Of a stretch of DNA of 64,000 nucleotides, positions 51,123 to 54,226 are shown one piece after another. The stretch's first letter is position 1. Each line of letters opens with the position of its first letter. Source of the stretch: Streptomyces sp. NBC_00178 (lineage in GTDB: Bacteria; Actinomycetota; Actinomycetes; Streptomycetales; Streptomycetaceae); NCBI RefSeq assembly GCF_036206005.1, contig NZ_CP108143.1, forward strand, positions 3,858,001-3,922,000, written 5' to 3'. A program made the translations under genes and the position numbers. The notes under the pieces are model-generated. The model ran no database searches. It was not told the DNA's origin and saw nothing but the letters and a program-made list of their open reading frames with translations.

Positions 51123-51695
51123 CTACGTGCCGCTTCCGCCCGCCGTCAGCGCCCCGAGGTCGTCCAGCAGGCCGCGCATCAGGCGGGACATGTCGCGTTC
51201 CTCGGAGTCACCGACCCAGCGTTCGAAACCGACCTTGAACACGGCGATGCCCGCTTCGGCCGTCAGGCTCGCTGCCGCTTCCGCCACGCCGCGGTGGCGC
51301 AGGGTCTCGGCGAGGGCGGCGGACAGTGAGGCCAGCTTCATCAGCTCGCGCTCCTGGAGCTCCGCGTTCGCCATGATCACGGCCTGACGGGTGCGTGCGT
51401 ACGCCCACCGGCCGGTGAACATCCCGGAGACCGCGTCGAGGCCCACCGCCAGCGCTTCGACGGGCGCCGCCGTCCGCGGGGCGTCGGCGACGGCGCCGAC
51501 GAGCAGGTCCCGCAGGCCGGTGCCGTCGAACAGCACCTCCCGCTTGTCCGCGTAGTGCCGGAAGAAGGTCCGCTCGGTGAGGCCGGCCCGCTTGGCGATC
51601 TCCGCGACGGTGGTCTGCTCGAACCCGCGCTCGCTGTAGAGCTCCAGCGCCGCCCGCGCCAGGCGGCCGCGCGCGTCCGGCTCCCATCTACCCAT
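51123..51695 (-). CDS. TetR-family repressor
   Basis: 190 residues. The helix-turn-helix spans residues 12-55 (RAALELYSERGFEQTTVAEIAKRAGLTERTFFRHYADKREVLF), followed by a helical ligand domain. The gene is divergent from the epimerase gene, with a near-perfect inverted repeat over the shared promoter region, the standard arrangement for TetR repressing its neighbour. Confidence 0.9.
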   Translation of the reverse strand: MGRWEPDARGRLARAALELYSERGFEQTTVAEIAKRAGLTERTFFRHYADKREVLFDGTGLRDLLVGAVADAPRTAAPVEALAVGLDAVSGMFTGRWAYARTRQAVIMANAELQERELMKLASLSAALAETLRHRGVAEAAASLTAEAGIAVFKVGFERWVGDSEERDMSRLMRGLLDDLGALTAGGSGT

Positions 51696-51715
51696 GGGCC
51701 GATCCTACGTGATGG

Positions 51716-51756
51716 CAGTGCCTGACATCAGGTGTTAGCGTTGATGACAGGCACTG
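51716..51756. promoter_or_regulatory. 15-bp inverted repeat between tetR and the epimerase gene
   Basis: CAGTGCCTGACATCA (51716-51730) and TGATGACAGGCACTG (51742-51756) match at 14 of 15 positions with an 11-bp spacer. The element is centred in the 86-bp divergent intergenic region, so one bound dimer or pair of dimers could block both promoters. Confidence 0.8.
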
Positions 51757-51781
51757 ACATCGAGAGTTTCGAGGTTCTCCC

Positions 51782-52699
51782 ATGCGCATCTTCGTGACCG
51801 GAGCATCCGGCTGGATCGGCTCCGCCGTCGTACCCGAACTCATCGGCGCGGGACACCGGGTGACGGGGCTCGCCCGGTCCGACGCCTCCGCCGCCGCGCT
51901 CACCGAGGCCGGGGCCGGGGTCGTCCGGGGCACCGTCGACGACCTCGACGTCCTGCGAGACGCGGCCGAGGCGTCCGACGGGGTCGTCCACCTCGCCTTC
52001 AAGCACGACATCGCCTTCAGCGGCGACTTCCAGGGTGCCGCCGAGGCGGACCGCCGTGCCGTCGACACCTTCGGTGACGCGCTCGCCGGCTCCGGAAAGC
52101 CGTTCGTCCTGGCCTCCGGGCTGGCCGGTCTCGCACCGGGACGGACGGCGACGGAGCGGGACATGCCGACGATCGACGGCTCACCGGCCGCGGTCCGCGC
52201 GGCCACCTCCCTGGCGGCGCTCGGCCTCGCCGCGCGGGGTGTCCGCTCCTCGGTGGTGAGGCTCGCCCCCACCTGCCACGGCGAAGGGGACAACGGCTTC
52301 ATGGCCACCCTGGTCGGCATCGCCCGCGCCAAGGGCGTCTCCGGTCACGTCGGGGACGGTGCCAACCGCTGGCCCGCGGTCCACCGCCTCGACGCGGCAC
52401 GGCTGTTCAGGCTGGCGGTGGACGAGGCGCCCGCCGGGTCGGTCCTGCACGGCGCCGCCGAGGAGGGCGTCGCGATCCGGGACATCGCCGAGGTGATCGG
52501 CCGCCACCTGGGCGTACCGGTGGTGTCCGTGGCTCCGGAGGACGCCGCGGCGCACTTCGGCTGGCTGGCCGGTTTCCTCGGTGCCGACGCGCCCGCGTCG
52601 CACGCGCTGACCGGTGAGCTGCTGGACTGGCGCCCCACCCGGCCCGGTCTCCTCGAAGACCTCGACGCGGGGCACTACTTCAAGGCCGCCGACGCCTGA
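51782..52699 (+). CDS. NAD(P)-dependent epimerase/dehydratase-like SDR protein
   Basis: 305 residues. MRIFVTGASGWIGSAVVPEL is the GxxGxxG cofactor site, VVHLAFKHD (about residues 60-68) is the extended-SDR strand, and VRLAPTCHGEGDNGFM with WPAVHRLDAARLFRLAVD fits the substrate-binding half. The classical YxxxK is not clear, so catalytic activity is uncertain. It is probably derepressed when the divergent TetR binds its ligand. Confidence 0.85.
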   Translation: MRIFVTGASGWIGSAVVPELIGAGHRVTGLARSDASAAALTEAGAGVVRGTVDDLDVLRDAAEASDGVVHLAFKHDIAFSGDFQGAAEADRRAVDTFGDALAGSGKPFVLASGLAGLAPGRTATERDMPTIDGSPAAVRAATSLAALGLAARGVRSSVVRLAPTCHGEGDNGFMATLVGIARAKGVSGHVGDGANRWPAVHRLDAARLFRLAVDEAPAGSVLHGAAEEGVAIRDIAEVIGRHLGVPVVSVAPEDAAAHFGWLAGFLGADAPASHALTGELLDWRPTRPGLLEDLDAGHYFKAADA

Positions 52700-52733: not shown

Positions 52734-52795
52734 GGTCCCGGGGGCCGGCCGCGACGGGGGTCCCGGGGGCCGGACGCGACCGGGGTCCCGGGGCG
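52734..52795. repeat. 25-bp tandem repeat (2.5 copies)
   Basis: Copies starting GGTCCCGGGGGCCGG lie at 52734, 52759 and 52784, between the convergent SDR and NmrA-like genes. No function is assigned; it may act as a terminator because each unit contains CCCGGGGG. Confidence 0.8.
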
Positions 52796-52863
52796 GGAAG
52801 CGGGGGCGCAACCCCCGGTGGTGGCGTGCCGGCCACCGGTCCGGGAGGCCGCGTCCTGGTGGG

Positions 52864-53598
52864 TCAGCGCGCCAGCCACTCGCGGTAGCGGGTCGGGGCG
52901 ATGCGCGCGTCGGGTCCCGCGGTGATCGCGTCCCCCTGGACGGCGCCGAACATCCCCGCCGAGCCGTCCGTGACGACGGTGCGCTTGTCGCCCCGTGCGG
53001 CCAGCGTGATGCCGCCGAGCTCGTCGAGCGTGTACGTGTCGGCGCCCGCGATGTCGAGGGTCCCCTGAAGGGGGCGGCCCGCCGCGACCTCGGCGACGAT
53101 CGCAGCCACGTCCGCGGCCGCGATGGGCTGGATCGGGGTGGCGGGCAGCCGGACGGTCTCCTCGTCCGCGCTCCAGGACATGACGGAGTCCATGAACTCG
53201 AAGAACTGCGTGGCGCGCACGATCGAGTACGGGACCCGGCCGGCCTTGAGCAGGTCCTCCTGGAGCACCTTGGCGCGGTAGTAGTCGAGCTCGGGCACCT
53301 TGTCGACGCCCACGATGGACAGCACCACCGCGTGTCCGACGCCCTGCTCCCGGGCGGCGGCGAGCAGGTTCTCCATCGTCGTCCGGAAGAAGTCGAACGA
53401 GGCCTCGTCGAAGGTGGGTGAGTTGGTCACGTTGACGACGGCGTCCACCCCCTCCAGGGCGGCCTGCAGGCCCTCCCCGCTGATGAGGTCGACGCCGGTG
53501 GACTGCGAGTGCGGCACCGCCTCGTGTCCGGCCGCCTGGAGATCCCGGACCACCTGTGAACCGATGAGTCCGGTTCCGCCGAGCACTGCGATCTTCAT
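52864..53598 (-). CDS. NmrA-like NAD(P)-binding SDR protein, partner of the RsrR-like regulator
   Basis: 244 residues. MKIAVLGGTGLIGSQVVRDL is the dinucleotide-binding start, VDAVVNVTNSPTFDEASFDFF (about residues 49-70) and YYRAKVLQEDLLKAG (about 108-122) fit atypical SDRs of the NmrA type, which sense NAD(P)(H) rather than reduce substrates. It is divergent from an Rrf2 gene with a double 11-3-11 operator between them. In S. venezuelae RsrR controls a divergently placed NmrA-family gene, so this is probably the same module. Confidence 0.88.
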   Translation of the reverse strand: MKIAVLGGTGLIGSQVVRDLQAAGHEAVPHSQSTGVDLISGEGLQAALEGVDAVVNVTNSPTFDEASFDFFRTTMENLLAAAREQGVGHAVVLSIVGVDKVPELDYYRAKVLQEDLLKAGRVPYSIVRATQFFEFMDSVMSWSADEETVRLPATPIQPIAAADVAAIVAEVAAGRPLQGTLDIAGADTYTLDELGGITLAARGDKRTVVTDGSAGMFGAVQGDAITAGPDARIAPTRYREWLAR

Positions 53599-53671
53599 GT
53601 CGTACCTTCCCTGGCATGGATGAATGGGCGATATGCCGGTAATGCCCGGCTCCGCAACACTCTACGCCTCA

Positions 53672-53723
53672 AACTCGGATAACTCTTGTCCGAGACAATA
53701 CTCGGACAAGGCTTATCCGGGTA
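53672..53723. promoter_or_regulatory. Double 11-3-11 Rrf2 (RsrR-type) operator
   Basis: Site 1 is AACTCGGATAA-CTC-TTGTCCGAGAC (53672-53696) and site 2 is TACTCGGACAA-GGC-TTATCCGGGTA (53699-53723), two adjacent inverted repeats. Together they also form a larger palindrome, CGGATAA...TTATCCG. They lie in the divergent promoter region of the NmrA-like and Rrf2 genes. The 11-3-11 layout is the RsrR/NsrR-type class. Confidence 0.85.
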
Positions 53724-53743
53724 TCGGAAGGTACTGTGAAGTG

Positions 53744-54226
53744 GTGAAGATGTCGGGTGGAGTCGAATGGGCGTTGCACTGCTGCACCGTGCTCACGACG
53801 AGCAGCGAGCCGGTCCCCGCCGCGCGCCTGGCCGAGCTGCACGACGTGTCGGGCAGCTACCTCGCGAAGCAGCTCCAGGCCCTCGCGCGCGCGGGGCTGA
53901 TCCACTCCACCCAGGGGAAGTCCGGCGGCTACGCCCTGACCCGGCCCCCGGAGACGATCACCGTCCTCGACGTCGTCCAGGCCGTGGACGGACCTGCACC
54001 CGCCTTCGTCTGCACGGAGATCAGGCAGCGAGGTCCCCTGGCGACGCCTGCGGCCGCCTGCACCACCCCCTGCGCGATCGCCCGCACGATGGGGGCGGCG
54101 GAGTCCGCGTGGCGCGCGTCGCTCGCGGCGGTCACGATCGCCGACCTCGCCCGTGACGTCGAGGCGGACTACGGTCCGCAGGCCATGGCGGGCATCGGCA
54201 ACTGGCTGGCGGACAGGGACTCCTGA
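53744..54226 (+). CDS. rsrR: Rrf2-family [2Fe-2S] redox regulator, RsrR-like
   Basis: 160 residues from GTG 53744. This start places Glu8 and His12 in MKMSGGVEWALHCC, as in RsrR, whose cluster uses Glu8 and His12 of one subunit with cysteines of the other. Cys90, Cys106 and Cys110 (FVCTEIRQ, AACTTPCAIA) are candidate cysteine ligands. The winged helix is at about residues 22-65 (LAELHDVSGSYLAKQLQALARAGL, with the QGKSGGYAL wing). The pairing with a divergent NmrA gene and a double 11-3-11 operator supports RsrR. It is expected to sense redox state through cluster oxidation and to autoregulate. Confidence 0.88.
   Translation: MKMSGGVEWALHCCTVLTTSSEPVPAARLAELHDVSGSYLAKQLQALARAGLIHSTQGKSGGYALTRPPETITVLDVVQAVDGPAPAFVCTEIRQRGPLATPAAACTTPCAIARTMGAAESAWRASLAAVTIADLARDVEADYGPQAMAGIGNWLADRDS

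Follow-up and report, generated by a model that had tools for sequence, protein, structure and literature searches.

A predicted rsrR-nmrA redox switch with a doubled operator in Streptomyces sp. NBC_00178

Introduction

RsrR of Streptomyces venezuelae (SvRsrR, encoded by Sven6563) is a [2Fe-2S] protein whose oxidized form binds DNA tightly and whose apo form does not bind at all (PMC5015018). A doubled operator and a divergent nmrA-like gene are already published for this species: two class 1 sites, both strongly bound, lie between rsrR and sven6562, and sven6562 was up 5.41 log2 in an rsrR mutant (PMC5015018). In a second account, the cluster is held by two Cys of one monomer and the His and Glu of the other, and Trp9 rotates upon reduction (PMC11138216). 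SoxR, with which RsrR has been compared, likewise uses the redox state of a [2Fe-2S] cluster as its signal (PMC5015018), yet it belongs to the MerR family and is unrelated to RsrR. NsrR and IscR share the Rrf2 fold and winged helix with the RsrR studied here; they are far weaker matches to it and differ in cluster ligands and operators.

Here, we describe an rsrR-nmrA locus in Streptomyces sp. NBC_00178 (Table 1), contained in a window of 64,000 nucleotides, which is the whole stretch of DNA analyzed. Common to this locus and that of S. venezuelae are the ligand positions, the divergent nmrA-like gene, and two 11-3-11 sites whose centers lie 27 bp apart. What is new is comparative detail on conservation, promoter layout, local scope, partner, and ligands, of which we infer the promoter layout, the enzyme role, and the local scope from sequence.

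Table 1. Predicted features of the rsrR-nmrA locus, in window coordinates
Feature	Position	Strand	Evidence
NmrA-like NAD(P)-binding protein, 244 aa; GGTGLIG motif, YxxxK (Y106, K110)	52864..53598	-	Pfam, alignment, predicted structure
Operator site A (11-3-11), predicted	53672..53696; 23-bp core 53673-53695		Dyad pattern and comparison
TATTGT, putative nmrA -10 box between operators	53695..53700	-	Conservation only
Operator site B (11-3-11), predicted	53699..53723; 23-bp core 53700-53722		Dyad pattern and comparison
TACTGT, putative rsrR -10 box, 6 nt ahead of start codon	53732..53737	+	Conservation only
rsrR orthologue, 160 aa, GTG start	53744..54226	+	Open reading frame, Pfam, alignment to SvRsrR

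Results

The 160-aa product was identified by Pfam and PDB matches as an Rrf2 protein with a winged helix. Its top PDB match by phmmer was SvRsrR (entries 6hsd, 6hse, 6hsm, and 6y42; E value 1.1e-73), with the variant entry 6y45 likewise among the matches, and residues 1 to 157 aligned with 6hsd without gaps, such that Glu8, Trp9, His12, Cys13, Cys14, Cys90, Cys106, and Cys110 all coincided. The next PDB matches (a BadM/Rrf2 regulator, IscR, CymR, and NsrR; E values of 2.2e-9 and up) fell short of it by over 60 orders of magnitude. By this alignment, the gene is an orthologue of rsrR and a member of an already characterized system. The initial annotation had called the protein RsrR-type, had placed Glu8 and His12 as in RsrR by reading from this GTG, had pointed to Cys90, Cys106, and Cys110, and had suggested an alignment with SvRsrR; the gapless alignment bears out each of these points with the ligand positions in register, and the accompanying doubt about a different cysteine spacing is dismissed because the spacing is the same. 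Identity to the RsrR of genome G015, which is identical to SvRsrR across the 157 residues compared, was 74%. A second close RsrR was absent from the 7.38-Mb genome, where the two other Rrf2-like matches reached 34% and 29% identity.

Conservation was assessed in the best 80 of 315 relatives in named genomes, picked by RsrR alone and spanning Streptomyces, Micromonospora, Amycolatopsis, Kitasatospora, Catellatospora, Sinomonas, and others. Across the 82 orthologues (these 80 loci, the window, and G015), Glu8, Trp9, His12, Cys13, Cys90, Cys106, and Cys110 were constant. The paralogues, sampled as 58 of 85 rows below 65% identity (G285, with a stop, was among the 27 left out), shared 45 to 62% identity; all 58 retained Glu8, Trp9, His12, Cys90, and Cys110, while 45 lacked a Cys at aligned position 106 and 36 lacked one at position 13. 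The alignment thus shows that the wider family can do without Cys106. The pattern agrees with a Glu/His/Cys/Cys cluster, and it fits Cys90 and Cys110, which we take to be the cluster cysteines of RsrR.

These data also bear on whether the window protein might be an NsrR-type [4Fe-4S] nitric oxide sensor that uses all three cysteines. The three C-terminal cysteines would suit such a sensor, and S. venezuelae RsrR was itself originally annotated as NsrR (PMC5015018). Against it, NsrR structures matched with an E value of only 8.5e-6 (versus 1.1e-73 for RsrR), the NCBIfam NsrR equivalog model scored 36.3 bits where its cutoff is 182, and Cys106 was the residue lost in the 45 paralogues that kept Glu8, His12, Cys90, and Cys110. 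NsrR identity was rejected on the far weaker PDB match and the subthreshold NCBIfam score, and we regard it as extremely improbable.

The paralogues without Cys106 (including L124, L135 to L139, L141, L142, and L146 to L149) had upstream regions of their own character. Of 45 counts of TANNNT, 41 fell 7 or 8 nt ahead of the start codon; the best 11-3-11 palindrome began 25 or 26 nt ahead of it in 34 of the 45 loci, and palindrome arms of length 8 or more occurred in 27, versus 6 of 45 shuffled stretches; in these paralogues, the TANNNT box seems from sequence to lie inside an operator abutting the gene. No nmrA homologue was found by tblastn (1e-3) beside the 18 paralogues for which at least 2 kb was fetched on each side. 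Three further relatives of about 60% identity (L143, L144, and L145) carried two RsrR-like sites 33 to 34 bp apart, with no nmrA homologue found; upstream of L143, a divergent transporter-like frame was seen by eye.

Two adjacent 11-3-11 sites between rsrR and the NmrA-like gene, as first proposed from the letters alone, were recovered by pattern search: with up to 3 mismatches allowed, an 18-letter dyad pattern matched sites A and B and nothing else in the 64 kb, and had no match in 100 shuffles. Both sites were present in 76 of the 79 loci with upstream sequence, a count uncorrected for relatedness (L063, whose contig begins at the gene, is left out of all upstream counts). Site B stood alone in two Planotetraspora, and in L055, where the scans were mis-anchored, site A was found by eye together with a site B bearing one extra base. 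Spacing between centers in the 76 loci was 27 bp (53 loci), 28 bp (19), 29 bp (1), 30 bp (2), or 31 bp (1); in the window it was 27 bp. In a consensus scan of positions 53500 to 53900, positions 53703 to 53719 in site B were also scored as a minus-strand terminator-like hairpin, a score that probably just reflects the dyad.

Such regular spacing raises the question of whether the two sites form one compound operator, on which touching dimers bind cooperatively, or have separate jobs. The centers lay 27 or 28 bp apart in 73 of 77 pairs, as touching dimers would favor. However, four loci had spacings of 29, 30, 30, and 31 bp, which at 10.5 bp per turn amounts to a rotation of up to about 137 degrees from the 27-bp arrangement, the two Planotetraspora loci did with site B alone, and each full site was bound strongly in S. 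venezuelae (PMC5015018). On balance, a compound operator is rather unlikely.

The sites themselves departed from symmetry in a consistent manner. The last base of site A was A in 72 of 76 loci, although the symmetry of the site calls for T; the base preceding site B was T in 76 of 76, and the matching A at the mirror position was present in only 31. Both departures create a minus-strand TANNNT that takes in the first base of site B and spans the gap. All 77 paired sequences, the window among them, had this wedged box, whatever their spacing (27 to 31 bp). Over all 80 sequences it was found in 79, compared with fewer than 5 at any other offset within 60 bases, and the lone exception was the mis-anchored L055, which carries the box by eye. 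It is possible, judging from this conservation, that the wedged TANNNT is the nmrA -10 box. A minus-strand TTG lay 19 bp upstream of the box in 41 of 80 sequences, the window not among them, and at no other tested offset.

On the rsrR side, TANNNT stood 6 nt (47 sequences) or 7 nt (19 sequences) ahead of the start codon in 66 of 80 sequences, including the window. Because TANNNT so close to a start codon predicts a leaderless mRNA, the rsrR transcript looks leaderless in these 66. Of the 14 remaining sequences, 13 had TANNNT at positions 7 to 12 of site B, and 11 of those 13 had a ribosome-binding stretch. Both placements co-occurred in only 6 of the 66 (Fisher p of 1.1e-9 between layouts, uncorrected for relatedness). 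G015, whose operator is the same as that in the published primer JM0141 (PMC5015018), belongs to the second type, having TAGTCT inside site B and GGGGAGG ahead of an ATG, whereas the window has its TANNNT 6 nt before the GTG and none at site B positions 7 to 12.

A sigma-70 consensus scan of positions 53500 to 53900 returned no promoter above threshold. For S. venezuelae, Table 1 of PMC5015018 places the two start codons at distances of 72 and -35 from the ChIP peak and lists one transcription start site distance, 36, whose gene is unstated; ChIP peaks are broad, which bears on how these distances are read. If the value of 36 belongs to sven6562, the nmrA start would lie about 36 nt ahead of the start codon and about 20 nt downstream of that predicted from the wedged box, which may count as a contradiction, and for this reason our preferred explanation and its extension to a one-target switch (see Discussion) were each rated lower.

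The divergent 244-aa product exceeded the Pfam cutoffs for NAD_binding_10, NmrA, and Epimerase, in keeping with the NmrA partner of the initial annotation. A divergent NmrA-like homologue preceded rsrR in all 79 loci with upstream sequence, at 41 to 88% identity to that of the window. G8, G10, I12, and G13 were kept in 110 of 110 NmrA-like rows, and Y106 and K110, the YxxxK pair that is catalytic in this superfamily, in 109 of 110. The predicted structure (pLDDT of 95.4) had KstA11, QOR2, triphenylmethane reductase, SwaQ2, and SimC7 among the matches listed; the QOR2 quinone reductase, KstA11, and triphenylmethane reductase matched over their full-length fold (Z of 22.6 to 23.0; 2.6 to 3.1 Å over 233 to 239 residues), although at just 19 to 27% identity. 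No NmrA structure was among the 50 matches listed in either fold comparison. Sugar epimerases and complex I subunits tied with the reductases in Z, and VIA-align gave no separation, so the substrate is not readable from the fold.

The counterpart in S. venezuelae has been proposed to be an NAD(P)+-sensing transcription regulator, and the Pfam NmrA match above cutoff is in line with such a role. Speaking against it are the length of the protein (244 aa, or 248 aa in G015, whose homologue has the same three Pfam assignments), the near-invariant YxxxK, and a Pfam search for helix-turn-helix domains that found none in the window partner (E values up to 0.001) or the G015 homologue (up to 1). The protein may regulate via another protein, and overall we consider a regulator here improbable. 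The published LysR label for sven6562 was likewise considered and is unsupported, as Pfam found no N-terminal helix-turn-helix in either the window partner or the G015 homologue. From its sequence and modeled fold, the partner is most likely an enzyme, namely, an NAD(P)H-dependent oxidoreductase, and not a transcription factor, and we infer that it reduces quinone-like or aromatic compounds.

The strong operator hardly occurs in this genome outside the rsrR-nmrA locus: with up to 3 mismatches, a 20-letter dyad pattern matched sites A and B and no other place in 7.38 Mb (reversed-pattern control, 0). All regulon scans used consensus patterns for full dyads. Among 150 genomes of the genus, 21 had a close orthologue (at least 69% identity) and 3 a distant one. 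A 16-letter dyad with at most 1 mismatch was found at 38 local and 5 other sites in the 21 carriers and at 54 sites in the 129 others, so that strong dyads outside the locus were not enriched in carriers (binomial p of 0.26). With at most 2 mismatches, a scan covering the window genome and G015, there were 7 further places in the former (reversed control, 2), of which 5 lay inside likely genes and 2 did not, and 10 further places in G015 (control, 3). Since the genome yielded no further strong operator, the comparison suggests that RsrR is here mainly a local switch for one gene and not a wide regulator.

A wide role has its own basis in S. venezuelae, where 117 ChIP-seq and 630 ChIP-exo sites and 14 class 1 sites were reported and several further targets were shifted in vitro by EMSA (PMC5015018). 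RsrR could accordingly regulate globally, through half-sites numbering in the hundreds, with the doubled operator being simply its strongest site, and by analogy weaker sites may matter in the present genome too. However, of the class 1 targets associated with ChIP signal, only sven6562 changed significantly in expression, although Table 1 of that study prints -5.21 log2 for sven6227 (PMC5015018), and strong dyads outside the locus were no more frequent in carriers, as above. We judge global regulation unlikely and favor the mainly local switch.

The window RsrR was 92% identical to that of Streptomyces sp. HB132, while homologues from Micromonospora (mostly 78 to 81%) were nearer to it than those of most Streptomyces apart from HB132. 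In a quick-method tree, the window and HB132 sequences adjoined Micromonospora and not other Streptomyces (SH-aLRT of 86, not starred). The gene was patchy within the genus (the 21 of 150 genomes above), and 47 full-length rows with at least 70% identity to SvRsrR were found among 392 genomes, leaving out the partial close rows G212 and G385. Horizontal transfer of the window rsrR is possible on these comparisons. Adjoining the pair, positions 51123 to 52699 hold a minus-strand TetR regulator (best NCBIfam match MftR, below cutoff) and, on the plus strand, a second NAD(P)-binding epimerase-like gene; between the latter and the nmrA end, GC-rich repeated GGTCCCGGGGGCCGG-like units were seen by eye at positions 52735 to 52800.

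Discussion

We read the locus, with a probability of roughly three in four, as an rsrR-nmrA redox switch that is mainly local and has a reductase as its outlet. By analogy with S. venezuelae, two Cys of one RsrR subunit and the Glu8 and His12 of the other would hold a [2Fe-2S] cluster in the dimer, the oxidized protein would occupy both operators, and reduction would turn Trp9 and free the DNA. The bound dimers would cover and shut both divergent promoters, as published for S. venezuelae, at -10 boxes whose exact positions are those predicted above. Opened upon reduction, nmrA would most likely make an NAD(P)H-dependent oxidoreductase, and the switch may thus constitute a dedicated outlet under over-reduction or in the presence of quinone-like compounds.

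A broader proposal, offered tentatively and at less than even odds, is that RsrR represents a single branch within a large family of actinobacterial [2Fe-2S] sensors with Glu/His/Cys/Cys ligation, a family that can do without the third cysteine. The nmrA-linked branch would be a one-target switch, with its operators interlocked with the nmrA -10 box, controlling a reductase and not a regulator, and most of the ChIP sites would lack conserved function.

The window RsrR is a diverged relative of S. venezuelae RsrR with the same parts. Comparison of the two sharpens three questions about the latter, namely, which cysteines are needed, whether it regulates locally or widely, and whether its partner acts as an enzyme or in regulation. 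Beyond this locus, many candidates for clusters of mixed Cys/Glu/His ligation are to be found among the two-cysteine paralogues.
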